NCBI GenBank assembly: GCA_030041385.1
Contig: JASHNY010000171.1
Span: 60,882-124,881, forward strand
Direction of reading: 5' to 3'
DNA from: Alphaproteobacteria bacterium
GTDB taxonomy: Bacteria; Pseudomonadota; Alphaproteobacteria; ATCC43930; CGMCC-115725
Length of the DNA: 64,000 bases
Below, one piece after another: positions 6,001 to 53,458 of this stretch. The position numbers and the translations under genes are program-made. Each line of letters opens with the position of its first letter. The first letter of the stretch is position 1. Under the pieces are notes generated by a model. The model ran no database searches, was not told where the DNA came from, and was given only the letters and a program-made list of their open reading frames with translations.

Positions 6001-9000
6001 GGGCGCCGGCGCCGATATAGGCGCTCGCATTCGCGGTGAAGACATCGACGATAAAGGCGCCGCCGATCGCCGCATCGCCCGCGCTCGCCCCGCCCGCCAC
6101 CGCGACGCTCGTCGCCGACGGGTCGTCGCTCGTGGGCAAAAGCGGGATCGGGATCGCCGAGGTGTCGAAATTGATCGTCGCGTCGATCGACAGCGCGCCG
6201 GCGACATCGGCATTGCCGTCGATATAGGAATTGGCCGTGACGTTGACGACGGCGACCGAGATCGCTGCGCCGACCGCGGTGCCTTCAGAAAACCCGGCCC
6301 CCGCCGCCAGGGTCTGCGGCGCCAATGTCTCCGCCGCTGCAACCGTAAGACCTCCGCCGGAGTGGACGCTCGACCCGGCTCCGACATAGGCCTCGACGGT
6401 CAGCGTGACGACGTTGACGGCGACCGATCCGGCAACCCCGACATCGCCGGTGCCGCCGCCGGCGGCGGCGCCCCAGGCGACGAAATTGTCGGTGGCGCCC
6501 ACCGGGTTGACCGCCTCGACCGTAACGCCCTGGCCGGTGACCGACGAATTGCCGTCGACATAGGCCTCGTTTTTTCCGGTGACGACGTTGACCCCGACCC
6601 CGGCGCCGATATTGTTGCTTTCGCTCTGCAACTGGACCGAGGTGCCGACCCCTTCGGCGGTTCCGGCCAGTTGCGACTGCCCTTCGACCGTCACCGCGCC
6701 GGCGGCGCTGACCGTGCTGCCGCCGGTGATGCTCGCAATGTTGGTGGTGGTGACGAAATTGACCGCGACCGCAGCGGCGACGCCGACCCCGTCGCTGCCG
6801 CCGCCGGAGCTGGCGCCGGATTGCGAGGAGCCTTCGCTGTTGGCGCTGCTGACATTGCCCGAGGCGGAGGGCAGGCTGGTATCGGCGCTCCCGTCCGCCT
6901 GGGTGACATCGGGGTTGTCGTTGAGCTGATGGTCGGCCTGGCCATCGGCGCCGGTCGAGCCGTTCTTGCCGTCCTGTTGCGAATCGCTGCTGCTGACGCC
7001 CTGCACGCTGGCGGTCGCGTCCGCCATGCTCGCCATCGTCGTCAGCGACGCCACGGTCAGCGTGCCGCCCGTCGTCGTCAGGCCGCGAGCCAGCCCGGCG
7101 CTGGCATTCTCGATGATCACGGCGACCGACACCGAGGCGCCGACGCCGACATTGCCGCCGGCCGCGGTGGCGTCCGTCAATGTTTCGAAGGCGCCGGTAT
7201 AGGTGGTGGTGATCGACACGTCACCGGTCGCCGAGATCGCGTCCCCGGTGCCCACATCGGCGGTCGCCGTGTCCTGGACGACCGCGACCGCGGCGCCGAT
7301 CCCGACCCCGGCGCCGCTGTTCGCCGAGGCGCCGTTCTCGCCATGGGTGATCGCCGAATCGGCAAAGGCCGCGCCGACCGAGAACGTGCCCGCGGTGCCG
7401 GACCACGCGGTGCCGTCGGCGATCTCGGCCGTGATCGTGTTGGTGACGACATTGACCGCCACCGAGGCGCCGACCCCGACGCTGCTGCCGGAGCCGCCGC
7501 CCGCCGACGGCGCCGCCTGCGACAAATTCGACTCGTCGCCCGCCGCCGCCACCGCCACGTCGCCGCCGCCCGTGATCGTGATCGACGCCGTGCTCGGCGC
7601 CGTGTCGCTCGGGCTGAGCCCGACCAGGGCTTCGGTATTGTTGGTGACGATATTGACCGTGACCGATCCGGCCACGCCGATCTTGCCGCCGCCAGCGCCG
7701 GACGTGGCCTCGGTGATGAACGAATCGCTCTGGTCGATCAGAATCTGGTTGGCGTTGCCGGCGCTGGTCAGCGCGATCGCGTTGCCGGCCTCGGCGTCGT
7801 CGCGGGTGGCGGCGAGCTGGAACAATCCGCCGCCCAACTCGATGACGTAATAGGTGTCGCCGCTGGTGAGGCCGCCGACCGCACTGCCGCCTTCGGCATC
7901 ATAGGTGACCGCATCGCCGGTGCGCAGCCCGCTGTCATTGCCGAGGTTGAGCACGTTCACCGTGCCGGCCGGCTGAAAGTTGATCGTGCTCGCCAGCAGC
8001 CCCGTGCCTTCGACACCGCTTGTCGTGAAATTCTGGTCGCCCGAACCGGTCGAGGTCAGCGCGATGGCGTTGGTGTCGTTCTGGGCATCGCTCGCGCTGT
8101 TGAACAGCGAGAACTTGCCGCCGCCCATATCGGCCACGTAATACTGCGTGCCGTCGCTCAATCCGCCGATCGCGGTGCCGCCATTGGCGTGATAGGTCAC
8201 TTCCTCGCCGGTGGTGAGGCCGCTGTCGAGGCCGAGGAAGATCGTGTTCGCAGTGGTGTCGACGACCGGCAATGTCGTCATCGGCATGGCGACGTTGCGC
8301 GCCGCCTCCGTCGCTTCGACGGTCAGGCCGCCGGCATTGATCGTGGTGGCATTGCCGATATACGCCTGGTTGGTCGCATCGGCGTAGTTGACCGCAACCG
8401 CCGCCCCCACCCCGGTGCCGCTGCTCGACCCGGTCACCGCCGAGCCGTCGGCGATCGCGTGTCCGTCGATATTGGCCGCGGACGAGACCTGCAAAACCCC
8501 GCCCGAGGTGATGGTCAGCCCATCCGGGATATAGGCCTTGGCGCTGCCGAGCTCGATGTTGGCCGCGACCGCGCCGGCGACGCTCACCGAACCGCTCGAA
8601 GTCGAGGCCGATGGCGCCGTCGCTCCCTCGGTGCCCTTCGCCTTGGACCCGGTGTTGTCGGCCCCGCTTTCGCTGTTAACGTAATTTTCCTGGCCGCTGG
8701 TCTGCTGGTCGACCTGCTGGTCGCCCGAACCGTCGTCCTGCGGGCCGCCGGCGACGCTCGCCGTCGCCAGGCTCTCGCTGCCGGAGATCGTGCTCGCCGA
8801 GAACGTTGCCGCCCCCGCCGCCGACAGGTCGCGCGCGGTCGTCGCCACCGAGCCGTCGTTGACCACGCTTACCGCAATCGAGATCCCGATCCCGGTATTG
8901 CCGGCGGTGTTGCCGGTGGCGCTGGTCTCGACCGCGTCGCTCAGCGACGCTTGGGCGCTGAACGCGCCCGACAGCGTGATCTGGGCGCCGCTGCCGAGCG

Positions 9001-12000
9001 TCGCTTCAACATCGTCGTCCGCCACCGACACCGCGATCACCGGCGTCACCTCGGTCCCGCCGCCCGAGGCCCCGTTCGTCGCATCGGTCGTCATTGTCTG
9101 CGCCAGGCTCGCGCCCAGCGTCAGGTTGCCGGCGCCGCCGATCGTGGCGCTGTTGTCGACCTGCGCCAGCACCGTGTTCTGGCCGTAATTCACCGAGACC
9201 GACGCGCCGACCCCGACGCTGCTGCCGCCGGTGGTACTGCCGCTCGCCGGCTCGGCGCTGACCGTGTTGGCGACCGTCGCCGCGGCCTGCAAGCCGACCG
9301 CGCCGCCCCCGGTCACCGTGATGCCGGGCACGCCGCTCGAATCGCCGAGATCGGCTTCGGTGTCAGTAAAGGCCAGGTTGATCGCCACCGAGCCGGCGAC
9401 CCCGATCTTGCCGCCGCCCGCGCCCGAGGTCGCCGACGCCCCGAACGCATCCGTGCCCCCGCCCGTCGCCGACAGCGACAGCCCGCCGACCGTCAGGGTC
9501 GCCACCCCGATATAGGCGAGGTTCGTCGCGTCGGCGTAGTTCACCGCCACCGCCGCGCCGACACCCGTGCCGCCGCTCGACGCCGTCACCGCCGAGCCGT
9601 CCGCCGTCGCCGTCCCCCCGACCGTCGCCGTCGATGTGACCGACAGCGTCCCCGTCGTCGTCACCGTGCTGCCGTCGCCGACATAAGCTTCTGAACTCGC
9701 CATCTCGACGTTGGCTGCGACCGCTCCCGCCACGCTGACCGATCCGCTCGAGGTCGAGGCCGATGGCGCGCTCGCCCCCTCCGTCCCCTTCGCTTTGGTG
9801 CCGCCGCTGGTATCGGAGCCGGCCTCGCTGCCGACAAAACCCTCCTGCCCGCTGGTCTGGCTATCGACCGACTGGGTGCCGGAGCCGTCATCGGCCGGCC
9901 CGCCGGCCACGCTCGCCGTTGCCGAACTCGCACTCGTCGAGTTGACGCTCGACGCGAACGTCGCGCTGGCCGCGGTCAGCGAGCGGCCCGATATCGACGC
10001 CGTCGCCCCGTCGTTGACCACCGTCACCGCGATCGAGATTCCCACCCCGGTCTTGCCCGTGGTGGTGTTCCCCGTCGCGCTCGTGGTTACCTGGTCGCTC
10101 AGCGACGCCTGCGCGCCAAACGCGCCCGACAAGGTGATCTGCGACCCGCTCCCGAGCGTCGCCGCGACATCGTCGTCCGCCACCGACACCGCAATCACCG
10201 GCGTCACCTCGGTGCCGCCGCCCGAGACCCCGTTCATCGCCGCCGTCGTCATCGTCTGCGACAGGCTCGCGCCCAGCGTCAGGCTGCCCGGATCGACCCC
10301 GGCCGAGCCGCCGATCGACGCCCCGTTCTCGACCTGCGCCAGAACCGTGTTCTGCCCGTAATCGACCGCGACCGAGGCGCCGACCCCGACGCTGCTGCCG
10401 CCGCTGGTGCTCGCCGCCGGTTCCGCCGACGCCATGTTGGCCACGGCCGCGCCGGCGGTCAGCGACACCGCGCCGCCGCCCGTCACCGTCACCCCCGGCA
10501 CCCCGCCGGCATCCCCCAGGTTCGCTTCCGTATCGGTGAAGGCCAGATTGATCGCCACCGAGCCGGCGACGCCGATCTTGCCGCCCCCCGCCCCCGAGGT
10601 GGCCGAGGCTCCGAAGCTGTCGGTCTCGTCGACCAGCGACTGGGTTCCGCTGCCCCCCGCGCCGAGCGCGATCTGCCCGGTCGTGCCGCCGGCCACGGCA
10701 TCCGCCTGGCTGTCGTAAAGCGCCAGCGTCCCGTCGCTCTGCACATTGACATAATAGGTCTGCCCGTCGGTCAGACCGCCGATCGCCGTTCCCCCTTCGG
10801 CGTCGTAGACCACGGCATCCCCGGTCACCAATCCCGACTGCCCGACCGCAATCGTGTTGTTCGACACCGCGCTCGCCGCATCGAAGCTCAGCGGCCGGTT
10901 CGCCTGCGTCGCCGAGATGTCGAGCCCGCCGACGGTCAGTGTCGATGCGCCGACATAGGCGAGGTTGGTCGCGTCGGCGTAATTGACCGCAACCCCGGCC
11001 CCGACCCCGGTGCCGCTGCCGCTGCTGACCGCCGCGCCGCTGGCGCTGGCGTGCCCGTCGATGTTCGCTGAGGAGGTGAGGCTCAGGGTCCCGCCCGAGG
11101 TGACCGTCAACCCATCGCCGATATAGGCTTGCGAGCTGCCCAGCTCGATATTCGCCGCGATCGCGCCGGCGACGCTGACCGACCCGTCCGAGGTCGAGGC
11201 CGAGGGCGCCGTGTCGCCCTCCGTCCCCTTGGTTCCGGAGCCGCCATCGGCCGCGACGAGGGAGTTGGCAAACCCCTCCTGGCCCGACGTCTGACTGTCG
11301 ACGTCGCTGTTGTTGTCGTTATCCTCGTCCTGCCCGCCGGCAACGCTGGCTTTCGCCGCCGACTGGCTACCGGAGACCGCGCTCGACAGGAAGGCCGCAG
11401 TGCCCGACGCCGCGGCCAGGTTCTGGTAGGTGGTGGAAAGCGAACTGTCGTTGACGACGCTGAGCGCCAGCGAGATGCCGATCCCGGTTTTCGACGCGTT
11501 GGTATCGCCGCTCGACGTAGTCTCTACGTTATCGGCGAGCGCCGAATTCGCCGTGAAGTTTCCGCCGATGGATAGCGGGGTATTGGTCGTGGTACCGAGG
11601 GTGGTATAGGCGTTGTCGTCGGAGATCGAGATCGCCACCACCGGTGTCACCGCGGTGCCGCCCGCGCCGCCGCCGGTGGCATCGGTCGTCATCAAATGCG
11701 TCGACTGCGCCGTCAGGGTCAGGTCGCCCGCCCCGGTCACTACCGCGTTGTTGCCGAGATAGGCGGCCGTCGTATCCTGGTTGTAGTTCAGCGCGATCGA
11801 CGCGCCGATCCCGACATTGGCAGAACTGCCGCCGCCACCGCTCTGCGCCGGCTCCGCACTCGCGCTGTTGGTGACGTTGGACTCGGCTTCGACCGTGACG
11901 TTCGGGCTTCCGGTCAAGGTGACGGTCGCACCCTGATCGATATAGGCCTCGTTTGTCGTTTGCGTGATGTTGAGCGCCAGCGAGCCGGCAAAACCGACGC

Positions 12001-13735
12001 TCGACGGGTCGCCCGCGCCCGAGGTCGCGCTGACTGTGAAGCTGCTCGGCGTCCCCGGGTCGAGCGGCAATACCTCGACCGCGAGGCTGCCCGCCGTGAT
12101 GTCGCTGGCGCCGGTGATGTAGGCGGAATCGTTGCGGTTGGCGACATCGATCGCCACGGCGACGCCGATGCCGGTCGAACTGCTGCCGGTGTTGGACCCG
12201 TTCGCGATCACCCCGACGACATCCGCCGATTGCGCCTCGACCGTCGCCGCCCCGGTGCCGGCATCGATCGTTCCGGAACTGACATAGGCCGAGGTGTTGC
12301 CGGTGTCGGTGCCGACCGCGACCGCACCTGCAACCCCGACATTGTCGCCGCCCGAGCCGGTGGCGGGGTCGTACTGCGAGAGGTAGTTTTCGCTGGTGTT
12401 GCCGCTGCTGTTCGCAGCCGCTCCGCCGGGCGAGGATTCGGCCGTCGTCGTGATCGTGCGGTTTGTGGTCGCCGTCAATGACACCGAGCTGCCGTCGACG
12501 GTGGCGCCGGCGATTGACGCGGTCGTATCGCCGCTGATGATCGAGGCGGCCACCGCCGCCCCCGCCGTGGCGCCGCTGGCGTCGGCGGTCGTGGTATCGA
12601 CCAGCGTGCTGCCGGCGCTCAGCGATGCCGCGCCGGCAGCGTCGAGCGTCGCCCCGTCGCCGATGTTGAGCGCCGCGCCGCTGGTGAACGTGGTAACCGC
12701 AACGGCGGCGTCCACCGTACCGTCGGTCAGCGACGCATCCGGCGTATCCGTGGTGGTGATGCCGACGTTGGATGTCGCCGCGACGGTCAGCGACCCGGCC
12801 GCACCCGGCCCGGTGGCATCCAAGGTCGCTTCGCCGATCGTGACGGTGGGGTCGGCCGAGCCGCTCAGGATCGCCGGCAATAACGTGTTGGCCGTGGTCA
12901 GCGTGCCGGTCACCTGCGCCGCGATGTCGATGGCGCTCGCCGACAATGTCGAGGTGTTGCCGGCCGTGTCACCGATGGTGACACTCGCGCCGCCGGTTGC
13001 GGTGTTGGGACCGCCCGGCAAGGCGGCGGTGGCGGTTTCGGTCGCCATCGCCTGCAACGACAGGGTTCCGGTGGCGGTGAGGTTGGCATCGGTGAGGTTG
13101 ACCTGGGAGTCGCCGCCGGTAGTCTGCGACGTGAGTGTCAGATCGCCGGTGACGCTGGCGGTGGCGCTAGAGGCGATCTGCGAGTCGCTCTGCACCGAAA
13201 GCCCGTAGCTGAGCGTGGCGCCGGTGGCGTCGAGGTTGACGAGGTCGTTGGCGGCGCTTTGGCTATTGTGCGCGAACTGCAGGGTCAGCGTCTGATTGTT
13301 CGCTCCCTGGGCGGCAAAGAACGAGTCGAGCGCGTTGAAACTGTCGAGATCGACATCGATCGTATCGCCCTGCGACGACGAATCGGTGCGGTTGATGGTT
13401 ACCGTGGTGTCGGTGGCGGCGGACAGGTTTGCGGAGTAGACGGGGTTGGTATTGCCGGTTTCGTAGAGGCCGATTGTGTAGGTCGAGCCGCTGTGCGTGG
13501 CCTGCAGGGTGAGGGGCTGGGCCGCGCCGAGCGCATAGGCGATGTCCGCCGACATCAAGAGGCGCGGCTCGACTGCTTCGAGCGTGAAGCGGCGGTGCCG
13601 GCGGGTTACCGGCGGCCGCGGCAGCGGGCCGCGGCGCGAATCCTTCCTCCTCTTGCCGCGCAGCACGTCGTGCAGCAATTTGGCCCAGGGAACGGATGCA
13701 GCTTCCTGAGGCGGGAAGCTCCGAGCCAGCTTCAT
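1..13735 (-). CDS. Giant repetitive adhesin-like surface/secreted protein with LEPR-XLL-type N-terminus (C-terminal end outside window)
   Basis: ATG at 13735 (complement) reads MKLARSFPPQEAASVPWAKLLHDVLRGKRRKDSRRG...RRFTLEAVEPRLLMSADIAYALG. The codon phase at 13735 matches the phase at the left edge (...GFTASSAGFAAVPNPSTSTPVITIENTLD). The sequence between is Gly/Ala/Ser/Thr/Val-rich and repetitive, e.g. GVGASVAVNYGQNTVLAQV and SVSVAGAVAANIELGSAKAYI. It is missing from the ORF track, presumably because no stop lies in the window. Confidence 0.9.
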   Translation of the reverse strand, partial: MKLARSFPPQEAASVPWAKLLHDVLRGKRRKDSRRGPLPRPPVTRRHRRFTLEAVEPRLLMSADIAYALGAAQPLTLQATHSGSTYTIGLYETGNTNPVYSANLSAATDTTVTINRTDSSSQGDTIDVDLDSFNALDSFFAAQGANNQTLTLQFAHNSQSAANDLVNLDATGATLSYGLSVQSDSQIASSATASVTGDLTLTSQTTGGDSQVNLTDANLTATGTLSLQAMATETATAALPGGPNTATGGASVTIGDTAGNTSTLSASAIDIAAQVTGTLTTANTLLPAILSGSADPTVTIGEATLDATGPGAAGSLTVAATSNVGITTTDTPDASLTDGTVDAAVAVTTFTSGAALNIGDGATLDAAGAASLSAGSTLVDTTTADASGATAGAAVAASIISGDTTASIAGATVDGSSVSLTATTNRTITTTAESSPGGAAANSSGNTSENYLSQYDPATGSGGDNVGVAGAVAVGTDTGNTSAYVSSGTIDAGTGAATVEAQSADVVGVIANGSNTGSSSTGIGVAVAIDVANRNDSAYITGASDITAGSLAVEVLPLDPGTPSSFTVSATSGAGDPSSVGFAGSLALNITQTTNEAYIDQGATVTLTGSPNVTVEAESNVTNSASAEPAQSGGGGSSANVGIGASIALNYNQDTTAAYLGNNAVVTGAGDLTLTAQSTHLMTTDATGGGAGGTAVTPVVAISISDDNAYTTLGTTTNTPLSIGGNFTANSALADNVETTSSGDTNASKTGIGISLALSVVNDSSLSTTYQNLAAASGTAAFLSSAVSGSQSAAKASVAGGQDEDNDNNSDVDSQTSGQEGFANSLVAADGGSGTKGTEGDTAPSASTSDGSVSVAGAIAANIELGSSQAYIGDGLTVTSGGTLSLTSSANIDGHASASGAAVSSGSGTGVGAGVAVNYADATNLAYVGASTLTVGGLDISATQANRPLSFDAASAVSNNTIAVGQSGLVTGDAVVYDAEGGTAIGGLTDGQTYYVNVQSDGTLALYDSQADAVAGGTTGQIALGAGGSGTQSLVDETDSFGASATSGAGGGKIGVAGSVAINLAFTDTEANLGDAGGVPGVTVTGGGAVSLTAGAAVANMASAEPAASTSGGSSVGVGASVAVDYGQNTVLAQVENGASIGGSAGVDPGSLTLGASLSQTMTTAAMNGVSGGGTEVTPVIAVSVADDDVAATLGSGSQITLSGAFGAQASLSDQVTTSATGNTTTGKTGVGISIAVTVVNDGATASISGRSLTAASATFASSVNSTSASSATASVAGGPADDGSGTQSVDSQTSGQEGFVGSEAGSDTSGGTKAKGTEGASAPSASTSSGSVSVAGAVAANVEMASSEAYVGDGSTVTTTGTLSVTSTATVGGTATADGSAVTASSGGTGVGAAVAVNYADATNLAYIGVATLTVGGLSLSATGGGTDAFGASATSGAGGGKIGVAGSVAINLAFTDTEADLGDSSGVPGITVTGGGAVGLQAAATVANTVSAEPASGSTTGGSSVGVGASVSVNYGQNTVLAQVDNSATIGGAGNLTLGASLAQTMTTDATNGASGGGTEVTPVIAVSVADDDVEATLGSGAQITLSGAFSAQASLSDAVETSATGNTAGNTGIGISIAVSVVNDGSVATTARDLSAAGAATFSASTISGSESLATASVAGGPQDDGSGDQQVDQQTSGQENYVNSESGADNTGSKAKGTEGATAPSASTSSGSVSVAGAVAANIELGSAKAYIPDGLTITSGGVLQVSSAANIDGHAIADGSAVTGSSSGTGVGAAVAVNYADATNQAYIGNATTINAGGLTVEATEAARNVAMPMTTLPVVDTTANTIFLGLDSGLTTGEEVTYHANGGTAIGGLSDGTQYYVADMGGGKFSLFNSASDAQNDTNAIALTSTGSGDQNFTTSGVEGTGLLASTINFQPAGTVNVLNLGNDSGLRTGDAVTYDAEGGSAVGGLTSGDTYYVIELGGGLFQLAATRDDAEAGNAIALTSAGNANQILIDQSDSFITEATSGAGGGKIGVAGSVTVNIVTNNTEALVGLSPSDTAPSTASITITGGGDVAVAAAGDESNLSQAAPSAGGGSGSSVGVGASVAVNVVTNTITAEIADGTAWSGTAGTFSVGAAFADSAITHGENGASANSGAGVGIGAAVAVVQDTATADVGTGDAISATGDVSITTTYTGAFETLTDATAAGGNVGVGASVSVAVIIENASAGLARGLTTTGGTLTVASLTTMASMADATASVQGVSSSDSQQDGKNGSTGADGQADHQLNDNPDVTQADGSADTSLPSASGNVSSANSEGSSQSGASSGGGSDGVGVAAAVAVNFVTTTNIASITGGSTVSAAGAVTVEGQSQLAGTAEGVGTSVQLQSESNNIGAGVGVNVVTGKNEAYVDGNSSVTGQGVTVEAVNPVGATDNFVAWGAAAGGGTGDVGVAGSVAVNVVTLTVEAYVGAGSSVHSGGGLTVAAAETLAPQTLAAGAGFSEGTAVGAAISVAVVNVTANSYIDGNADVAGALSIDATINFDTSAIPIPLLPTSDDPSATSVAVAGGASAGDAAIGGAFIVDVFTANASAYIGAGAQINQGGLYTPSSAQTISIDAENDTTITSIGGALGLTTGSAGIGGSLDVEILNKQTYAYIGDATVSAGGAVSLQANATETMLSIVVTAGGAGTAGVAGSISVAVVTSDTSAYLDNNGSLDAGGTVLISATDQFTTTMLAGAVGLGGEAGVGVADTTLVHSDTVLAYVGTSATVIAGGTGLSIGADESENILTIAADAGVSGSAGVAGSAVVNVLTEVTTADIGDGAKVTVNNGGNLVVSAADDSSVISVSGNLAAGGDAGVGAGVDVGTYQKTTTAYIGSGVNATVGGSIIVAANSSEDIISIAAGLAIGGYAGVGVDAGVHVFTLQTRAFIGEDPDGTATVAANISAGGSIAVEANDTTDINEIVGVLGAGAAGFAAGAGVNVMSKDTEAFIGTGATVSAGGAGAGLTVDTGLIDTGLDTSASTFNPNSPGGVGIDSSTSGSAAESGDRSSFESAGQVGIPQLGGLDLTGNGSSSQVSNPALQGIVTTSPDTENGFTGIAVAATNEDNIRSFVVTFGAGAAGVGISAGVDVVTAKTEATIGDGATVTSGGSVLVGASNYFYHLTIDVGVAAGGVGVAPAVGVNVIDYTTNAEIGAASVTATADVVVQAASNENIAMIGAGASVGGATGVGAVVDVLTVNNSTTASIDGSAIVEAGGNVAVYATDNTAVLELAGSVSVGGVAGIGGSVGVIVLDKDTTATIGQDAHVDALGNTSAASGILDGVIDDNGTQFDTTGANGVIVQAESSENILHIVVAGAVGGDAGVAGAVGVSLITSTTDAKIATGAVIDGNQTYEQHANPRQSVYVNAGNDVTIQSYVIGVGVGGLVGLTGAVDVGTLNNNIDAEIDTGASVAARNDVEVNAVGIKNLTGYTISGAGGIVGLGASVSVWSLGTPIQTSYQDNSGDSSNALTGNSGGAADGNAADQSQSGTSLVTGSGGLGAFTSSGSNSNSSQNRVESASQTAGADVNNDGPTQSSILNAENVPALPPGTTAAVQAGASIHADNDIGVTADEAASVTQVLGQVSGGVVGAGAAVDVLSIADNVTASDDGTNYAGRNIAVAAVFNEGVNVTSLGLQAGYIGLGAGVVVITDNSVTQATLGSVTGAQAVTVEASADRSFTALTGQADVGAVGAGATFVEITIGGGATATVDDSASLTNIASLTVSADSTVTVNATTDAISAGIGAFSANFTIVEANPTVAATIGNNTTVSTPGAVSVDASATFAADATTNGVSAGGLAVGVSLSEVTLAPTVTASVGSDAQITAGSLTLSASTPLPTTNAGYSAQATSTGSVGALVGATSTNAITNNNSVIKSFVDSSAVLTIAGATFISAVGTNEQEADSDSNAGGLVAAGIATSQSNSDTDTEAYLGSNVLLTDSGDVTIAATANDDNFALTNAGSGGAIAGDAAVADTTNDSTTTATIGAGSYVDAATVTLGADHIATFNAQITTLAGGVLAGSGAGIDNQISAATTAAVGDNATVTSDDISITATDDAEKPLLNDGSESENDFGTTGGLASAAGAADTTTISFTTKVTIGDYASLDVPGVTSDLPLITLAALNIFNVHDIMAFETGGAVSGAAVTGTITTSTDIADVYVGQGASITSSGAIVMSARGGGTIDQEISTETYGAGTATLGSTTVDIEPDNTVEIGPYATVTANGDLDLSAGSDTNYDTDQYVLTSTYDGFAGSAIPISSIHATGYLIQTDLINIDQGALAESGGTANLYTDLFGDDQVTTQAKAESWVSDLSGSILSALGGGALAQYANTNTLYLANSVITNDGTVETGINRNLSLDLTGWNDATGQITSYTASPGITFQSTYQTIANTLAAEITRDEQLLNEYGANTPLLQQFYQNQINQDEAEIAADNLPTETPGGTPEGTTGYQMAVNVAPIVADAGRIWVVGSELAGSGSFIAPSDASVTITNNTPAFLNIYGITIPADNGGMYFNGDLWTTNSQITTQDQKNIGALNQRNQNAGSPLSGFTASSAGFAAVPNPSTSTPVITIENTLD
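7690..11660 (-). repeat. Three long imperfect intragenic repeats in the giant adhesin gene
   Basis: The block ...GISIAVSVVNDG...SGQE...SASTSSGSVSVAGAVAANIELG.AYIGDG...GTGVGAAVAVNYADATN.AYIG...ATSGAGGGKIGVAGSVAINL... recurs from about 11660, 10210 and 9060 downward, with high DNA similarity. Confidence 0.85.
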
Positions 13736-14294: not shown

Positions 14295-15659
14295 TTAGGC
14301 CGGCAGCGTCGGGGCCGTCGCCGGGCGGCCCGGCGGAAACGACCACCAGAAAGTCCCGGCCGAGCCGCCGGCCGCCAAGGCGCGCTGGCGCAATTCCTCC
14401 CGCATGGCCTGGAGCTCCCGCGCGCTCCAGCCAAGGCACGAGGTCATCGCCAGGGTGCGCGGGTCGAACACCATGTTCCATTCCGGCCGGCCGCGGGTCA
14501 TCAACGCATCCGGCAATACCAGGCAGTGATAGGCGCGCACCCCGCCCGGAAGCGACAGCGCGTAGTCGAGCGTGCGCCGGAACCCCTCGGGGGTATCGCC
14601 CGGCAGGCCGAAGATCACCTGCATCTCGATATTGGTGATCGCGGCGAGGCGGCGGATCTCCTGCTCGAACCGCGGCGGATCGGCCTTGCGCTGATGCAGG
14701 CGAAGCACCTCCGGGTCGGTCGATTGCAGTCCCACGCCAAGATAGGCGGGGCCTGCCTCCTTCAGAAATTCGATATGTTCGTCGCGGATCGCCGCGGGAT
14801 AGATCTCGGCCCAGAACAGCACGTTGCGCAACGCCCCGGTCTCGGCGGCGGCCTGCCGCAGGTTGCGGAAGGCGCGCAGGCTGAGGTTGAGGCCGGCGTC
14901 GAGCAGCAGCACCGCCGGCGCCTCGAGCCGGGCGAAGGCGCGCATTTCGCGCGCGATGTACTCGCTTGAGAAAATCCCCCGGCTGCGGTCGTGCGTGCCC
15001 CATTCGCAAAACAGGCACGACAGCGGGCAGCCGCGAAAGGTTTCGAGATAGGCGACCGCGCCGCGCGGCATCAAGCCGAGCTGGAACGGCGAGGCCAGTT
15101 CGTCGAGTTCGGCCGGGGCGGGCGCCGGACCGGTGCGGTGCCAGCCGCGCCCGACCGGCAGGGTCAGCCCGGGGATGGTTTCGAGCGCGGCCCGGGTCAG
15201 CACTGGCAGCCGCGCGATGTCGCGGAAGATGATCTCGCCGTCGCCTTCGACCAGAGCGTCGAGATAGGTGTTGGGGTCGCGGTAGAAATCGAGGTCGAAC
15301 AGCGCCGTCCGCGCCGACGGGCCGCCGAACACGATCACGCAGGACGGGCGCCGCCGCTTGATCTCGCGCGCCACCGCCACCATGCATTCGGCCGACCACA
15401 CATAGACCGAGAAACCGACGAGATCCGGCTCCAGGGCGAGGATCTGGTTGACGTAGAGGGCGACGTCGGCACGCCCGAAATCGAGCAACCGCACGCGATG
15501 CCCCGGGCGCTCCGGATCTCCGACGACGGCGGCCTGGACGCGGCGGATGCCGAAGCTCGGCAGGTGCAATGTCCTCAGTTCGCCGCCGTCCGGAAGCGGG
15601 GTCAGGCAGACCAGGGCGATGCGGCGTGACGGCACGGCGTTCTTGCAGACCGGTGGCAC
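14295..15659 (-). CDS. B12-binding domain-containing radical SAM protein
   Basis: N-terminal cobalamin-binding-like half (LEPDLVGFSVYVWSAECMVAVAREIKRRRPSCVIVFGGPSA), then RGCPLSCLFCEW (Cx3Cx2C), VGLQSTDPEVL and VIFGLPGDTPEGF. Confidence 0.88.
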   Translation of the reverse strand: MPPVCKNAVPSRRIALVCLTPLPDGGELRTLHLPSFGIRRVQAAVVGDPERPGHRVRLLDFGRADVALYVNQILALEPDLVGFSVYVWSAECMVAVAREIKRRRPSCVIVFGGPSARTALFDLDFYRDPNTYLDALVEGDGEIIFRDIARLPVLTRAALETIPGLTLPVGRGWHRTGPAPAPAELDELASPFQLGLMPRGAVAYLETFRGCPLSCLFCEWGTHDRSRGIFSSEYIAREMRAFARLEAPAVLLLDAGLNLSLRAFRNLRQAAAETGALRNVLFWAEIYPAAIRDEHIEFLKEAGPAYLGVGLQSTDPEVLRLHQRKADPPRFEQEIRRLAAITNIEMQVIFGLPGDTPEGFRRTLDYALSLPGGVRAYHCLVLPDALMTRGRPEWNMVFDPRTLAMTSCLGWSARELQAMREELRQRALAAGGSAGTFWWSFPPGRPATAPTLPA

Positions 15660-15709
15660 CCAAGGGGCCGATCGTAGACGGTTGAGGCCGCCGGCGCTAC
15701 AGTCGCGTA

Positions 15710-16528
15710 ATGGTAGGATTTTTCCGCCACCTCGACATCCGGGCCGTCGAGGCCGGGCGCTATCCCGACGCGATTCGGCGGATGCGGCGGGAGGAGATCG
15801 AAGGCATCGTCGTGCGCGAGGTCTACGATCCCGCCGAATGCGCCCGCATCTGCGAGCGGCTGGAGGCGGGACGGCACGGGCTGTTGCGCACCGATTTTCC
15901 GCCGCTGATGCGCGCCTTTTTTCTCGGCATGAACCTCAACCTCACCGTGGATCTCGCCGCCTATTTCCGCGCGGCGCCCGGTTTTCGCGACGCGCTTGCC
16001 CGGCTGTTTTCGGGCAATCTCGACCTGGAGGCGCGGATGGCGAGCGTGCTGTCGGCGCTCGACGGCGGCCGCCGCTACCGCGCGGCACCGGGGCCGAGAC
16101 CGACGATCGACCATATGTTCACCACCCTGCGGGCGCACCTGCCGGGCGGCTTCATCCCGCCGCATTTCGACAACGAACAGGGGTTTCGCGCCAGCTATCA
16201 ACTGCTGCTGCCGCAGATCGGCGCCGACCTCTATTCGTTCGTGCTCGGTCTCCGCCCGGCCGAGGCGGGCGGGGCGCTGGAAATCTTCAACCTGCGCCAC
16301 GGCGGCCGGCCGTATCGCATGGCCGACGGCGCCGACGATGCCTCGCACATCGACCTCGACGGCGTCGAGAGCGTCAGCTTCCGGCTCGATCCCGGCGCGA
16401 TGATCGTCTTCAATTCGGGCCGCTACCTGCACCGCGTCACCCCGGTCTGCGGCGATGCCATCCGCTGGACGGCCTGCAGCTTCATGGCGGAGAGCCGGGC
16501 CGGCGATGAGACATTCTGCTGGGGCTGA
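15710..16528 (+). CDS. 2OG-Fe(II) oxygenase-like protein
   Basis: IPPHFDNEQGFRASYQLLLPQ (HxD), FNSGRYLHRVTPV (distal His), RWTACSFMAE. Confidence 0.72.
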   Translation: MVGFFRHLDIRAVEAGRYPDAIRRMRREEIEGIVVREVYDPAECARICERLEAGRHGLLRTDFPPLMRAFFLGMNLNLTVDLAAYFRAAPGFRDALARLFSGNLDLEARMASVLSALDGGRRYRAAPGPRPTIDHMFTTLRAHLPGGFIPPHFDNEQGFRASYQLLLPQIGADLYSFVLGLRPAEAGGALEIFNLRHGGRPYRMADGADDASHIDLDGVESVSFRLDPGAMIVFNSGRYLHRVTPVCGDAIRWTACSFMAESRAGDETFCWG

Positions 16529-17347
16529 ATGACCGGCCGTGCAATCCCGGCCTATCTCGACGGCCTGATCGCCGCCTACCGCGCCGGCCAGGCCGGGCGT
16601 GACATCCACCTCGGCTACTGGGACCGCCCGCCGGACATGCGCGCGCCGGCCTTGCCCGGCGAATTTACGGCGGCGCAGGCACGCTTTACCGCGCAGGTCA
16701 TCGAGCGGGCGGAATTCCGCGCCGGGCAGCGCGTGCTCGATATCGGCTGCGGGCTCGGCGGAACACTCGCCGCGATCGCCGCGCGCTACGACCCCATGGC
16801 CTTGTGCGGCCTCAATATCGACCGGCGCCAGCTGGCGCTGTGCCGCAGCCTCGCCCGCGGCCCCGGCACCACGCTGGCCCTGGTCGAGGCCGACGCCTGC
16901 GCCCTGCCCTTTGCCGAGGCCAGTTTCGATCGGCTGCTGGCGATCGAGGCGATGTTCCACTTCCGCTCGCGCCGGCGCTTTCTCGGCGAGGCGGCGCGGT
17001 TGTTGAAGCCCGGCGGCCGCCTCATGGTGACGGATATCCTTCTGCAGGACCCGGAGGACGCGACGCCATGGCCGGCCGCCGCGATGACCGCGGCGGTTCG
17101 GCGCGAGTACGGGCCGTGGCCTGAGCCATGGCTCGCCCCGGAAATGCTGGAACGTTGGGCGGCGGAACTGGGCCTTGGCGTTCTTGCGGCCGAGGACTGG
17201 ACCGCCGCGACCCTGCCGAGCTATCGCACGATCGCGCCGCACGGCGCCGCGGCGGGCACCCGCCCGCCCGATGCCGGCAGCGTGCTCGCCTGGCTGCACG
17301 GCCACGGCCGGCTCGCCTACCGGATGCTGATCTTCGCCCGCCGCTGA
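16529..17347 (+). CDS. Class I SAM-dependent methyltransferase
   Basis: RVLDIGCGLGGTLAAIAARYDPMALCGLNID motif I, FDRLLAIEAMFHF, LLKPGGRLMVTDI; starts directly after the upstream stop. Confidence 0.9.
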   Translation: MTGRAIPAYLDGLIAAYRAGQAGRDIHLGYWDRPPDMRAPALPGEFTAAQARFTAQVIERAEFRAGQRVLDIGCGLGGTLAAIAARYDPMALCGLNIDRRQLALCRSLARGPGTTLALVEADACALPFAEASFDRLLAIEAMFHFRSRRRFLGEAARLLKPGGRLMVTDILLQDPEDATPWPAAAMTAAVRREYGPWPEPWLAPEMLERWAAELGLGVLAAEDWTAATLPSYRTIAPHGAAAGTRPPDAGSVLAWLHGHGRLAYRMLIFARR

Positions 17348-17398: not shown

Positions 17399-18271
17399 TC
17401 AGAACACGCCGTAATAGCCGCTTTTGACGATCGCCAGCCTTCCCTCCTCCATGCGGTAGTCGATGCCGACGTCGAACAACAGGTGGTCGAGATTGCCGCG
17501 GTTCTCGTGAATGAAGCGGATTGTCGGCGCCGGATAGTCGAGATGCCGGAGGAACCACAACAGCTGGTATACATTCACGCCCGAGAAATAGATGCAGTCG
17601 TGGGTCTGCTTGTTGGCGATGCAAATCGTCCGGCAGTCGCGCAACTCCGGCATTAGCACGGTCTCGACCGGCAATGCCGAATCGTCGAAATAGGCCGAAT
17701 TGCAGATTTTCTTCGCCGCATCGGCCAGCTGGCTCTGCCCGTCAAAGAAGAAATAGAAGTTTTCGAGCGTGGCCGTGCCGTCGTCGCGCACCGCGTAGGC
17801 GATGCCCGACGACACCGTGCTGCCGGCGTTGCCGACATACATGTGGACGACGTCGAGCACGCGCTCGCCGGCGGCAAGCGCCGCATCGAGATCGAGCGAA
17901 AACATGAAATAGGGCAGGCTCTCAATGACGCGGATGCCGCATTGCACCAGCGGGCGGATCGCCTCCAGGACCCTGGTGATCGACACCAGGCGCTCGCGCC
18001 GCCGGTAGTCGTAGAAATAGAATTCCCACGCCACCTGTCCGGGCAGCGACTTGATGCCGAAGACGGTGCGGAACGGCCCGATCCCGTCGCGGATGGCCTC
18101 GACGATATCGAAGGCGCGGGCGCCGACGCCCGCTTCCGCAAACGAGTGAAACAACAGGTTGATCGACCGGAACTTGTTCTCCGCGTCGGCCGGTGCGCCG
18201 TATTCCCACAGGCAATAGTTCAGCGACGGATCTTGCGCGGTGGCGAATTCGAAGCGGTCGGCAACGGTCAC
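17399..18271 (-). CDS. Hypothetical protein, family not recognised (290 aa), radical SAM operon
   Basis: Open frame with natural composition, packed in an operon; ends ...EEGRLAIVKSGYYGVF. Confidence 0.7.
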   Translation of the reverse strand: MTVADRFEFATAQDPSLNYCLWEYGAPADAENKFRSINLLFHSFAEAGVGARAFDIVEAIRDGIGPFRTVFGIKSLPGQVAWEFYFYDYRRRERLVSITRVLEAIRPLVQCGIRVIESLPYFMFSLDLDAALAAGERVLDVVHMYVGNAGSTVSSGIAYAVRDDGTATLENFYFFFDGQSQLADAAKKICNSAYFDDSALPVETVLMPELRDCRTICIANKQTHDCIYFSGVNVYQLLWFLRHLDYPAPTIRFIHENRGNLDHLLFDVGIDYRMEEGRLAIVKSGYYGVF

Positions 18272-18283
18272 CGGTGCCTCCTG

Positions 18284-19408
18284 CTAGCGGAACGCTTCGT
18301 GAAACTGCGGCAGGCCCATTACGCCGTAATAGATGTTGAAGAAATCCTGCTCGTTGCGGTGCAGCCCGCCGGCGATGTGTCCCAGCGCCTTGGTCTTGAT
18401 CTGGTCGTAAAGCGCCTGGAACTGGCCCGGGCGCACGCCGAAATGGTCGCGCATCCGGTAGAGCAGGTGCTGGATGTCCTTGACTTGCAATTTGGCATTG
18501 TAAAGGTTCAGGTCGAACGATCTACGGGCATTCTCGTCCTCCAGAACCTCGAGATACTGCAGTGCCTCGGGCGGCGCCCGCTCCGCCGCCAGGCCCAGCG
18601 CCTCCGTCGCGATCGCCAGAGAGGCCGATGCGCGGTCGCGGTAGACCTGGGCCAGCCGCTCTTGCAGCTGCGCGACCGCGCCGGCCTGGCGCCACAAGTA
18701 TCGGGTGGTCACGACCGTGTCGGTGCCGAGCTCCCACTTGAACGCGAGGTGAAGGAGAACCGGCTCGTCGCGTTCGCGCGCGCGCCGGGCTTCCCCTTCC
18801 GGCACTGCGCGCTCGAGATAGAACTTGCAGATCACCGCATCGCCATCGCCCTCGAAGCCGAAATGGAAGCAGCGCGCCGCCGCCAGGTTCGCCTCCGCCG
18901 CCGCGCGGAACCCCTCGGGCATGCCGAGCTCGGCGCAGATGTCCAGCGGCCGCCGGTGCAAATCGCCGCGCAAATCCTTGGCCTCGACCGTCAACAGGAA
19001 ACGGTTCGCGGCCAGCCTGCCCTTGGCGAGGCGGAACGAGCGTTCGTAGGCGTAGGGTACCCCGATATTCCCGACGAGCCGGAGCAGCAGCGCGGCGGCG
19101 TCTCCCGCTACTTCCGGGCGCTGCTGCGCGGATGGGTCGCCTGCGCCGAACGCCGCCGCCGCGTCGCCCGGCGACAGGGCCTGCGCCTCCGCTGCCCGCA
19201 GCCGCGCCGCATGCGGCCGCAGCGCATCCTCCAGCGAGCGGACCAGCCGGCGCCCGACCTCCACCGGCACGACGACGCGGTCGGTCGCCGCCACTGCCGC
19301 GTCGCTGCCTGCCAACGGGTCGACGACCCGGCCGAACTCGATCACCACATTGCCGCCGTCGAGCCACAGCCTGAAGGCGTCGGCAGCGCTCGGCTTCACC
19401 GTGTCCAT
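18284..19408 (-). CDS. Hypothetical protein, family not recognised (374 aa), radical SAM operon
   Basis: Starts 1 nt after the stop of the radical SAM gene; C-terminus ...KTKALGHIAGGLHRNEQDFFNIYYGVMGLPQFHEAFR. Confidence 0.7.
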   Translation of the reverse strand: MDTVKPSAADAFRLWLDGGNVVIEFGRVVDPLAGSDAAVAATDRVVVPVEVGRRLVRSLEDALRPHAARLRAAEAQALSPGDAAAAFGAGDPSAQQRPEVAGDAAALLLRLVGNIGVPYAYERSFRLAKGRLAANRFLLTVEAKDLRGDLHRRPLDICAELGMPEGFRAAAEANLAAARCFHFGFEGDGDAVICKFYLERAVPEGEARRARERDEPVLLHLAFKWELGTDTVVTTRYLWRQAGAVAQLQERLAQVYRDRASASLAIATEALGLAAERAPPEALQYLEVLEDENARRSFDLNLYNAKLQVKDIQHLLYRMRDHFGVRPGQFQALYDQIKTKALGHIAGGLHRNEQDFFNIYYGVMGLPQFHEAFR

Positions 19409-20362
19409 TCAGCTCCCCGTCGCAAACGGCACCAGAACATCGGCATGCCAGCCGTATTTGTTGACGTAGGCGGTGTTCAACCCGAGACAGCGGCGCGACG
19501 CGCAATAGCTGCGATGGACGCATTGGTGAAAGCCGTTGCGCATGAATTGCGGCCAGAATTCGGGATCGATGACGAGCTTGGGCTGGGAATTGTCGAGCGC
19601 GTCGCGGTCATCGCCCAACAGGCACTCGGGAAAATTCTTCACCTCGACCGAGCGGCCGTAGGCCCGGGCCCGGGCGATTGCGTCGCGCAGAAACGGCAAC
19701 ACGTCGAGATGCGACGGGATGAGGCCCTTGTCGTCGGTCTCGCGCATCGGCCAGTAGGTCCAGAATTCCATCTGCGCGAGCCGGCGCAGGTGCCCGAGCC
19801 GCTCCACCACGGCGGGAAGCTGCCGATAGCTGCGCTCGGTGATGACCGTGTTGGTCAGCGTTGCCACGGTGGCGAAGGCATCGAGGTTGTGAAGCCCGCG
19901 CAATGTGCGCTCGAACGAGCCGGGCACGCCGGTGATCGCGTCGTGGCTGGCCGCATCGGCCGCGGTGACGCTGACGAAGAACTCGTCGATGCCGGCCTCG
20001 ACGAGCTCGCGGCAATAGTCTTCGTCGGCAAGACGGCCGCCATGGGTCTGGATGCGAACGTGCTCGAAGCCGCTCGCCCGCGCCGCCCGCGCCAGCTCCG
20101 CCAGGTCGGACCGCAGCGTCACCTCCGCGCCGGTCAGCGTCAGCCCCTTCCACAAATGTTGCCGGGCGTTCTGGCGAAGGATGCGGTCGAACTGGCCGGC
20201 GCCCTCCGGCCTCAGCCAGTCCATCGTCCCTTCGATCATGCAGTGTTCGCAATGCAAGTTGCAGCGGAAGTGGATTGTCACCTCGACGTAATCCTGCGCC
20301 GGAAACCGTCCCCCTTGGGGCGGCGCGGTCGCGACGGGGGCGCTGTCGGTCGGGTTGGACAT
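19409..20362 (-). CDS. Radical SAM protein with C-terminal Cys cluster
   Basis: EVTIHFRCNLHCEHCMIEGTMDW (CxxxCxxC), TLTGAEVTLR, IQTHGGRL, C-terminal CVHRSYCASRRCLGLN. Confidence 0.9.
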   Translation of the reverse strand: MSNPTDSAPVATAPPQGGRFPAQDYVEVTIHFRCNLHCEHCMIEGTMDWLRPEGAGQFDRILRQNARQHLWKGLTLTGAEVTLRSDLAELARAARASGFEHVRIQTHGGRLADEDYCRELVEAGIDEFFVSVTAADAASHDAITGVPGSFERTLRGLHNLDAFATVATLTNTVITERSYRQLPAVVERLGHLRRLAQMEFWTYWPMRETDDKGLIPSHLDVLPFLRDAIARARAYGRSVEVKNFPECLLGDDRDALDNSQPKLVIDPEFWPQFMRNGFHQCVHRSYCASRRCLGLNTAYVNKYGWHADVLVPFATGS

Positions 20363-20388: not shown

Positions 20389-21465
20389 TCAGTATCCCCG
20401 GCGCCCCGGCTTTCGGCCGGTCACGATGAAGAACGGCATGTCGAGGTCGATTTGCTGGTGGCTGATGTCGGCCAGTTCCTGGCCCTGCAATTCCGCCACG
20501 TAATCCGTAAACGGCCGGTACGACCGGAAGAACAGCACGTGCGGCAGCAGCGACAAGGGCGGCGTCGCCTCACGCACCTTCAGCGGGGCACGCTCGAAGA
20601 TCAGCAGCGTGCCGCCGGGTTCGAGGGCCCGCACCGCCTTGTCGATAAACTGGCGCGCCTCCTGGGCCGGCCAGTCGTGCAGCATCGACTTGAACGCGAT
20701 CAAATCGTAGCCGGCGGGCAGCGGATCATTGCGGATATCGCCCTTGAAAAACGCGATCCGCGCGTGCTCGGGCTCGGCCAAAACATGCTCCATGCCGATC
20801 TCGCAGACCAGCGGCAGGTCGAACACCGTCGCGTGGAGCGCCGGGTTTCGCCGGCACAATTGCAGGGCGAATTCGCCGCTGTTGCCGCCGACATCCAGCA
20901 TTCGCCGGTAGGGCGAAAAATCGTGCGCCCGGGCGCAGGCCTGCCCCTCGTAGCGCGTCAGCGTCGAGGTGATGCGCATCCAATGGCGCGCGCGGACGTA
21001 ATTGTCGAAGCTCGGCTCGAAACAGCGGCGGTAGTCGAACAGCTGGAACAGCCGGGCCTCGCCCATAAAGCTTCCGGCGTTCTGGATCAGCGCGGTGAAA
21101 CGGTCGGCGAAATCGCCAATGCTGAAGCCGGCGAAGTCCAGCTTAAGTTCGAGCAGATCGCGATAGCGCAGCGCCTGCAGGAAGCGCCGGCTGAGGCGCA
21201 CATCCCCGCCATGCTCCTCGACGACGCGGTTGGCGGCAAGCAGATCGAGCAGAAACCGCAGCCCCTTGCCGTCGAGCTTCAAGGCGCGGCCGAGCGCCTC
21301 GACCGACCCCGAACGCTGCTCGGCCAGCCGGTCGATGAGGCCCAGCTCGAATGCCGTCTTCAGCGCGCGAGCGGCCACGAGCGTCTGCAGGAATTCGTCG
21401 ACGATCAGGAACTCGTTGGCCTGCGCGGCCTCGTCGAGCGACCGTATCGCGCCGGGCTCGGGCAT
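20389..21465 (-). CDS. SAM-dependent O-methyltransferase (acetylserotonin/COMT-like)
   Basis: ARALKTAFELGLIDRLAE dimerisation-like N-terminus; MLDVGGNSGEFALQLCRRNPALHATVFDLPLVCE; ALEPGGTLLIFERAPL. Confidence 0.9.
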   Translation of the reverse strand: MPEPGAIRSLDEAAQANEFLIVDEFLQTLVAARALKTAFELGLIDRLAEQRSGSVEALGRALKLDGKGLRFLLDLLAANRVVEEHGGDVRLSRRFLQALRYRDLLELKLDFAGFSIGDFADRFTALIQNAGSFMGEARLFQLFDYRRCFEPSFDNYVRARHWMRITSTLTRYEGQACARAHDFSPYRRMLDVGGNSGEFALQLCRRNPALHATVFDLPLVCEIGMEHVLAEPEHARIAFFKGDIRNDPLPAGYDLIAFKSMLHDWPAQEARQFIDKAVRALEPGGTLLIFERAPLKVREATPPLSLLPHVLFFRSYRPFTDYVAELQGQELADISHQQIDLDMPFFIVTGRKPGRRGY

Positions 21466-21468
21466 CGC

Positions 21469-21771
21469 TCATCCGTTCCCGGTCGCACGCGGCCCGCCCG
21501 CCTCCTGCGGCGGGATCAATCGGCCCAGCATGTCGTGCAGGCGCTTCGCCGTCAGCGGCGTCATCGCGATGCGGGCGAGCAGCCGGACGGAGATCGCGCT
21601 CGCCGGGCTGTCGCTGTGCGTCGTGCCGACATTGACGACGATTTCGGTCGATGTCGATGTCGCGGTCGCCAGCCGGCCGTGGTGAGTCTGCAGCGCTGAA
21701 TCGTCCCAGCGTGGACCGCGTCCCGCCGGTGCGGCCGATTGCTTTTCCGGTTGCGGGCCGGTCGCGCTCAT
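21469..21771 (-). CDS. Small DUF3467-like protein (100 aa)
   Basis: TEIVVNVGTTHSDSPASAISVRLLARIAMTPLTAKRLHDMLGRLI resembles the DUF3467 core; ATGA overlap with the upstream HlyD gene. Confidence 0.55.
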   Translation of the reverse strand: MSATGPQPEKQSAAPAGRGPRWDDSALQTHHGRLATATSTSTEIVVNVGTTHSDSPASAISVRLLARIAMTPLTAKRLHDMLGRLIPPQEAGGPRATGNG

Positions 21772-22607
21772 CCGCTCCCCGCGGTGATCGTCGGCAACGA
21801 GGCAGAGCAGCGGATGCCGGCGGGAATGCGGTTGCCGGGGTTGTGCATGACCAGGCGCACCCGGAAGGTGTCGCTGGCCGGGTCGACGACGGCATCGACG
21901 GCATCGACCGTGGCCGGCACGACCGAACCGATCGGCGCGGCGAGGTGCACCTCAGCGACCTGGCCCATTTTGACCGAGCCGTAACGCTGCGCCGGCAGAA
22001 CCAGATCGATATACAGCGGATCGAGCTGGTCGATCGTCATGATCGGCGTGTTTTCATAGATGTAGTCGCCGGGCGACAATTTGACGTCGGTCACGATGCC
22101 GTTGATCGGGCTCTTGATCAGCTTGAGCTGAAGCTGCCGCTCCGAACGCTCCGCTTCCAGGGCGGCCGTCTTCTGGTCTGCCGTCGCCTTGCGGATCGCG
22201 ATCAGATCCTGCGCCACTTTTGCTTCATACTGGTCGACCTCGCTGGCCTTCGCCAGCCGATCGGCCGCAAGGTTGCGCAAGCGGCGCAATTCCCGCTGGT
22301 TCCACGACAGGTCGGTCTGGGCCATCTCGATTTCGGTCTTGTTGGCGGCGCGGAACCGGTCGAGCGCGACCTGCGCCTCTTCGACGCTGGTATCGAGCTT
22401 GGCAACGATTTCGCCCGCTTTGACCGGCGCGCTGCGATCGACAAAGACCTGGGCGAGAACGCCGAAAACCGGGCTGCCGAGCTGGATCGTCTGTTTCGGC
22501 TTGAGCAGGCAGGCGGCGAGGCCCCCGTCATCGGCCCATGCCGCGGATATGGCCGAACTGCCCAACCAAGCAAGCACGCACAGCGCGATTTTATGTGTGA
22601 GCGGCAA
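21768..22607 (-). CDS. HlyD/RND-type periplasmic adaptor (membrane fusion) protein
   Basis: Signal peptide; LGSPVFGVLAQVFVDRSAPVKAGEIVAKLDTSVEEAQVAL; LIKSPINGIVTDVKLSPGDYI; LDPLYIDLVLPAQRYGSVKMGQVAEV. Confidence 0.88.
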   Translation of the reverse strand: MPLTHKIALCVLAWLGSSAISAAWADDGGLAACLLKPKQTIQLGSPVFGVLAQVFVDRSAPVKAGEIVAKLDTSVEEAQVALDRFRAANKTEIEMAQTDLSWNQRELRRLRNLAADRLAKASEVDQYEAKVAQDLIAIRKATADQKTAALEAERSERQLQLKLIKSPINGIVTDVKLSPGDYIYENTPIMTIDQLDPLYIDLVLPAQRYGSVKMGQVAEVHLAAPIGSVVPATVDAVDAVVDPASDTFRVRLVMHNPGNRIPAGIRCSASLPTITAGSG

Positions 22608-52846: not shown

Positions 52847-53458
52847 AGGCTATCCTCCTTGTCGATGATTGGCGACCTCAAGCGAGGAAGATGCTGGCTC
52901 GTCTCTTTCCTAGATCGCTGGACGCGGGTCTTCGTTCCGCCGCGCCACACGACAAGGCGCACGGGTCGCCTGGCCAACACCAATTGCCGCTGGCGCCAAT
53001 TCCGTCATCGCCGGAGGCCGGCCGCCGTTCCGGCAGCTTCAAGGCCTTAAAAAAACAGCCCCGAGAACCTGCGTCTTTTGCCGAAATTGCATAGCGAGAT
53101 CACGTCACAAATTTGTTTGATGGAGAGGATCGATCGGCCGCGGCGCCACTCGGCCGATGCCGAGGTCCCCGGCCTTTTAACAAAGAGAATGGCGATGAAT
53201 TTGATCGATACGGGAGGCGATCCAGCGGGGATATGACGTCATCACCATCGGCAACCAGCGGTTCGATTCCGCCATCGACGCTCGTGCCGGTGCACGGCGC
53301 TTGCTGACCCCGAGGGTAATGCGTTTGGCGGTTGGCCACCGCACCCCGCCCGCCTTTCCGCCGCCCGAGCCAGATCGATCGAAGTAAGAGGTTGCCGGAG
53401 CAACAAAACAAGTTGTTGCAGCGGCGATCCGAACAAAAGGCTGCAAACGGAGGCAGGC

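Follow-up and report, generated by a model that had tools for sequence, protein, structure and literature searches.

A trio of B12-binding radical SAM, WelO5-type oxygenase and methyltransferase genes is an accessory tailoring module between a conserved radical SAM cassette and a giant LEPR-XLL gene

LEPR-XLL giants rank among the largest bacterial proteins and are represented by the NCBIfam models NF012209/NF012206, and almost nothing published on them was found. Also close to the locus analysed here are the hapalindole/welwitindolinone-type pathways, in which ABBA-fold prenyltransferases (AmbP1/AmbP3/FamD1) and a WelO5-family enzyme (WelO5) share one neighbourhood, the teleocidin pathway (TleC, TleD), the cyanobactin prenyltransferases (PagF, LimF, PatF, KgpF and OcyF) and the B12-radical SAM methylases of the TokK/KedN5/CysS type.

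The locus lies in an alphaproteobacterial stretch of 64,000 nucleotides, the whole of which was analysed (hereafter the window). Like the hapalindole/welwitindolinone-type pathways, it joins ABBA-fold proteins with a WelO5-family enzyme, but the iron site of the latter is HxD and not HxG, the ABBA-fold proteins fall into two predicted new families at ~10-15% identity, a radical SAM enzyme and a giant-protein exporter are attached, and isonitrile enzymes were not seen. With the teleocidin pathway it shares a predicted ABBA prenyltransferase fold and a TleD-like methyltransferase, whereas the NRPS/P450 partner was not seen and the taxa are different. One of the ABBA-fold proteins, p374, shares the fold of the cyanobactin enzymes, and around the LERS...RFL strands its profile resembles OcyF/PagF below the significance threshold, but it is fused to a DUF3467 domain and partnered by a radical SAM enzyme and a second ABBA-fold protein, and a cyanobactin precursor and proteases were not found. 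The B12-binding radical SAM enzyme has the domain layout and best matches of the TokK/KedN5/CysS type, but it scores far below the cut-off of the KedN5 family model NF033712 (91.5 against 700 bits), is shorter and is usually found in tandem in relatives. Finally, the giant has the motif and repeats of the known LEPR-XLL proteins above the model cut-offs, but the exporter and tailoring cassette attached to it are described in no paper that we found. Searches of the open-access literature (subscription papers not covered) on LEPR-XLL, on the gene combinations and on links between giant proteins and prenyltransferases returned no description of the system. Although each part falls into a known fold family, there is a substantial chance that the system as a whole is of a categorically new kind. 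The genes are as follows.

2..13735 (-): giant repeat protein, N-terminal 4,578 of 7,213 aa; LEPR-XLL motif (VEPRLLMSAD) and 53-aa LktA-type repeats
14295..15659 (-): B12-binding radical SAM gene, GTG start, 454 aa; PF04055 (1.7e-15) and PF02310 (1.6e-10)
15710..16528 (+): 2OG-Fe(II) oxygenase gene, 272 aa; PF22814 WelO5 (3.4e-53) and PF13640 (5.7e-6)
16529..17347 (+): class I SAM methyltransferase gene, 272 aa; PF08241 (2.6e-20)
17399..18271 (-): p290, 290 aa, modelled ABBA fold (prenyltransferase barrel); 76/80 radical SAM loci (lower bound)
18284..19408 (-): p374, 374 aa, DUF3467-like N-terminus (~residues 1-100) and modelled ABBA-fold domain (105-365)
19409..20362 (-): radical SAM enzyme, the cassette anchor, with CxxxCxxC and a C-terminal Cys-rich segment; 52-81% identity, 80 loci
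20389..21465 (-): dimerising O-methyltransferase, Methyltransf_2 type; 50/80 loci (lower bound)
21469..21771 (-): small DUF3467-like protein of an exporter-associated family; alone below the Pfam cut-off
21768..22607 (-): small periplasmic adaptor of the HlyD/RND type; its place next to the cassette is conserved
22746..24272 (-): NodT/TolC-type outer membrane channel; TIGR01845 above cut-off

Upstream of the NodT channel gene lies an ORF resembling aldo-keto reductases (24711-25715, minus strand), which was not seen in the conserved cassette.

The sequence-only reading of this DNA had described the trio as a B12-radical SAM gene diverging across about 50 bp from an oxygenase and methyltransferase pair that converges with an operon ending at 17399, within an island of two radical SAM enzymes, two methyltransferases and one Fe(II) oxygenase. 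This arrangement was borne out in full: open reading frames and Pfam matches place the three genes as listed, the divergent gap measures 50 bp (15660-15709), the convergent gap 51 bp, and the ATG of the methyltransferase directly follows the oxygenase stop codon. That all three are real coding genes is shown by homologues of 33-64% identity in several phyla (planctomycetes, alpha- and gammaproteobacteria, and Methylobacterium), and in nearly all cases the oxygenase and the methyltransferase, with or without the B12-radical SAM gene, are kept together.

The B12-radical SAM protein contains the CxxxCxxC motif (GCPLSCLFCEWG) and, with PF02310 and PF04055 both above their cut-offs, classes as a B12-dependent radical SAM enzyme, predicted to be a radical C-methylase. 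TokK and CysS are the nearest solved structures, and its homologues in other cassette genomes are 54-64% identical and usually followed by a second B12-radical SAM gene. The oxygenase belongs to the WelO5 family (PF22814, 181.4 against a curated cut-off of 27 bits, residues 8-272) and matches WelO5 in the PDB (E 1.5e-23). In enzymes of this kind the iron site reads HxG in halogenases and HxD in hydroxylases (PMC12346261). The window's enzyme has HxD (HFDN), and HxD or HxE (HFDN/HVDN/HCDN/HCEN) occurs in every homologue with a readable site, from which hydroxylation, of the hydroxylase type rather than the halogenase type, would be expected; a WelO5-like halogenase, with Gly instead of Asp or Glu in the iron triad (HxG...H), was rejected on the same residue. 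Another 2OG-Fe(II) oxygenase, of the PF13759 type, precedes the O-methyltransferase in several betaproteobacterial loci (L027, L029, L030, L047, L050 and L052). The top PDB match of the trio methyltransferase is 5gm1 (E 2e-25), followed by MitM; the molecule in 5gm1 is also that of 5GM2, identified as TleD (PMC8159823), the terpene C-methyltransferase-cyclase of teleocidin.

For p290 and p374 no Pfam or NCBIfam model matched, and sequence searches of the PDB with either protein alone gave no significant match. AlphaFold models of the two operon proteins, built from alignments of 50 and 63 homologues, reached a pLDDT of 87.8 for p374 and 96.1 for p290. Foldseek matched the p374 model to LimF, PagF, CdpNPT, TleC and FamD1, its best matches including the peptide prenyltransferases LimF, PagF, KgpF and PatF, and the p290 model to AmbP3, AmbP1, FamD1, CymD and CloQ (probability 1.00 and E 3e-7 in both cases). 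The top PDB matches of both models are all ABBA enzymes, so that a five-repeat alpha-beta-beta-alpha barrel is well supported for both, and they are predicted to be two new ABBA-fold families; since the TM-scores are modest (about 0.4-0.55), prenyl transfer is a putative function, although the family alignments contain invariant Arg/Lys/Tyr/Glu positions. The two were rejected as sequence paralogues, profile similarity between them being absent though both models have the ABBA fold. In Pirellulaceae and Gemmataceae (L015, L016) a single protein combines both, suggesting that they act jointly. The N-terminus of p374 matches DUF3467 (hhalign probability 96, E 3e-9). The small DUF3467 protein was rejected as first choice for a small RiPP precursor, given that it belongs to a conserved exporter-operon family, is present without the cassette and is fused to p374. 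The O-methyltransferase of the operon has DtpM and hydroxyindole O-methyltransferase as its nearest solved relatives.

To the left of the trio, 13.7 kb are occupied by a single giant ORF that runs off the window and extends over contig positions 52975-74616 (end at G000:C170:52975). Both the LEPR-XLL model NF012209 (25.9 against a cut-off of 17 bits, residues 50-72) and the LktA-repeat model score above their cut-offs. Behind it follow genes for SapC, a GAF-HlyD adaptor, a PqqD-M50-HlyD protein, a SecA paralogue (E 8e-100) and a putative TPR-type glycosyltransferase, and the SecA paralogue, PqqD-M50-HlyD, GAF-HlyD, DUF3467 and TolC proteins are the exporter parts at the locus. Homologues of the exporter M50 protein carry a PqqD family annotation; where radical SAM enzymes modify peptides, recognition is classically the task of PqqD. 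The same exporter set occurs without tailoring genes on plasmids of Pseudosulfitobacter, Methylosinus and Mesorhizobium and is therefore self-contained. The TPR-repeat protein behind the SecA paralogue, outside the window (G000:C170:43562-46000), reads as having a glycosyltransferase-like C-terminus, and the giant may thus be glycosylated as well.

No residue motif tracking with the cassette, and no conserved target motif, was found in the giants. A Pro/Gly/Trp-rich tail of GPW repeats (G000:C170 ~53,400-53,530, outside the window), in a giant otherwise poor in Trp, was rejected as a modification site because it occurs in this genome's giant only and is not conserved in others, and Y/W-rich repeat motifs were not decisive, occurring in giants with and without the cassette. 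An HExGH metalloprotease-like motif lies near the C-terminus of giants upstream of the cassette in L011, L013 and L023 and is absent from the window's giant. A shared tail (~W-x2-DF...NPNAGIR(I/V)), possibly an export or sorting signal, is present at the C-terminus of the giants of the window's genome, L010, L011, L013 and a Mesorhizobium ciceri plasmid (L140), with and without the cassette.

The conserved cassette consists of the radical SAM enzyme, the two ABBA-fold proteins and the O-methyltransferase, to which many relatives add a halogenase, a P-loop kinase and SapC. With the radical SAM enzyme as query, a scan of 84,980 species genomes recovered 80 loci from Proteobacteria, Planctomycetes, Cyanobacteria and one Rokubacterium; many are cut by contig ends, and the gene counts are thus lower bounds, with p290 in 76, p374 or a shorter form in ~60, the O-methyltransferase and SapC in 50 each, a Trp-type halogenase in 30 and a P-loop kinase in 22. 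A flavin Trp halogenase (PF04820) was not found in the window's genome, compared with the 30/80 related loci. No p374 was found among 42 genomes of the same order, and a search of viral contigs yielded no relatives. The recurrent P-loop kinase-like protein has ~200-220 aa (L011, L013, L024, L034, L042 and others). In Methylobacterium-type loci (L017, L021, L024, L028, L032, L084 and L089) a Trp-halogenase-like domain stands directly before p374 or is fused to it; its WxWxIP motif and GEATIP segment having been lost, it could be a remnant without catalytic activity.

Of the 57 loci of at least 15 kb, 50 have one or more genes for exporter parts, SapC or DUF3467 within ~10 kb of the cassette, and LEPR giant genes in relatives directly adjoin SapC, p290 or the radical SAM gene. 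The exporter M50 homologue is present in 46 of 50 cassette genomes (43 strong) and in 1 of 384 class controls, yet only one of 13 plasmid exporter records contains the radical SAM gene; the cassette therefore depends on the giant/exporter system and not vice versa. Adjacency to a LEPR giant is not universal, because in Pontibrevibacter (L005, NZ_CP049813 6754-31575) p290 and the radical SAM gene immediately follow the gene for an autotransporter-like repeat protein of 3,926 aa, and the LEPR-XLL locus of the same plasmid is 48 kb away. In the Nostoc and Trichormus genomes (L019, L025) the cassette is present and an M50 exporter of this kind is absent.

Of 50 cassette genomes, 15 yielded the WelO5-type oxygenase, against none of the 384 class controls (Fisher p ~1e-15). 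This compares genomes picked by radical SAM from several phyla with controls from one class, so that more weight falls on an even sample from a single family: among its 199 genomes, six have the radical SAM gene and four the oxygenase, all four among those six (p 2e-7). Wherever the contig permits a check, the methyltransferase follows the oxygenase, often with two tandem B12-radical SAM genes and a halogenase behind it. The trio is missing from about 70% of cassette genomes; it lies near the cassette in Gammaproteobacteria, Planctomycetes and Alphaproteobacteria and, in some Methylobacterium, elsewhere in the genome. One genome (G593) has the order HlyD-DUF3467-OMT-rSAM-p374-p290-giant, that of the window without the trio, and the window's trio is placed exactly at the p290/giant junction, which shows that the trio is an accessory tailoring module between the conserved cassette and the giant gene. 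The earlier proposal of one biosynthetic locus thus held in nested form: every genome in which the oxygenase was found also has the radical SAM gene of the operon, and no case of a trio lacking the operon was seen, but the operon is common without the trio, so that the expected mutual co-occurrence of the two halves held in one direction. The proposed C-/O-methylated or oxidised product fits the enzyme families, but it leaves out prenylation by the two ABBA-fold proteins, the halogenase of many relatives and the link to the giant protein and exporter. Beyond that reading are the two prenyltransferase-fold operon genes, the adjoining giant gene with its own exporter, and the WelO5-family membership with an HxD site.

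No obvious core synthase (NRPS, PKS or terpene cyclase) was seen among the locus genes examined, and for this reason, as judged from gene content, the locus does not appear to be an ordinary small-molecule gene cluster; a plain small-molecule cluster was also demoted owing to the giant-protein/exporter linkage. Our leading, if still tentative, proposal is that a polypeptide, probably the giant protein, is modified on its aromatic side chains before or during export, prenylation being followed by C-methylation and hydroxylation. An aromatic side chain (Trp or Tyr) of the substrate, most likely the giant, would receive a prenyl group that the radical SAM enzyme and the two ABBA-fold proteins install or transfer, while recognition domains of the DUF3467 and PqqD types hold the substrate. 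The prenyl or indole part would then be C-methylated by the TleD-like methyltransferase and the B12-radical SAM enzyme and hydroxylated by the HxD WelO5-type oxygenase, either ahead of export through SecA/PqqD-M50/HlyD/TolC or in the course of it. The linkage to the exporter, the DUF3467 domain that p374 has in common with it, its domain of PqqD type and the likeness of p374 to peptide prenyltransferases make us prefer polypeptide modification to a free indole-terpenoid. The reactions proposed are in keeping with the nearest solved relatives of the enzymes (WelO5, TleD, AmbP1/AmbP3, TokK and hydroxyindole O-methyltransferase).

The most serious competitor, which we regard as possible but somewhat less probable, is a free small molecule as the product of the cassette: an indole-terpenoid or a derivative of an aromatic amino acid, prenylated, methylated and hydroxylated (and halogenated in relatives), which HlyD/NodT would export, with the giant merely co-inherited or co-regulated. 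The nearest solved relatives of almost all the tailoring enzymes act on indole terpenoids or other free metabolites (AmbP1/AmbP3/FamD1/TleC, WelO5, TleD, TokK and hydroxyindole O-methyltransferase). That WelO5, TleD, AmbP1/P3 and TokK have small molecules as substrates counts against a polypeptide, as do the exporter and giant without the cassette (12/13 plasmid records) and the Nostoc and Trichormus cassettes without this M50 exporter. The frequent flavin halogenase of relatives and the HlyD and NodT genes within the operon also favour a metabolite, and the unlinked trio of some Methylobacterium speaks both for it and against a polypeptide. A core scaffold enzyme, however, was not noticed among the annotated genes, close linkage to giant and exporter recurs in several phyla, and the DUF3467 domain is common to p374 and the exporter. 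Because no target motif tracking with the cassette was found in the giants, which also weighs against the polypeptide proposal, the two readings stay close. The same linkage data, with the recurrence of SapC and the P-loop kinase in the cassette, would also fit a lipid-like prenyl anchor or cofactor, made by the ABBA-fold proteins and the radical SAM enzyme and fine-tuned by the trio, that tethers the giant to the outer membrane; this seems unlikely, since no lipid-linkage enzyme was recognised and the Pontibrevibacter giant has its own hydrophobic C-terminus. A trio that landed here by chance would explain its absence from ~70% of cassette genomes and from the same-class sample, and the convergence of the operon half with it, but this is highly improbable given the nested co-occurrence (15/50 against 0/384; 4/4 in the even family sample) and the same trio near the cassette in three major groups.

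Returning to polypeptide modification, we put forward somewhat more guardedly the wider proposal of a RiPP-like system, consisting of the radical SAM enzyme and two ABBA families with an optional halogenase, B12-radical SAM methylases and hydroxylase, that may modify secreted giants of 7,000-14,000 residues during SecA/PqqD-M50/HlyD export in Proteobacteria, Planctomycetes and Rokubacteria; in Cyanobacteria another exporter would take that part. The gene set is widespread and undescribed, it defines an HxD branch of the WelO5 family and two predicted new ABBA-fold families, and through it a subset of LEPR-XLL giants travels with natural-product chemistry. The enzymes may decorate the giant or supply it with a companion molecule. 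If the enzymes do not act on the giant, a new family of prenylated-indole metabolites is indicated; if they do, giant surface proteins would be subject to prenylation, radical methylation and halogenation.
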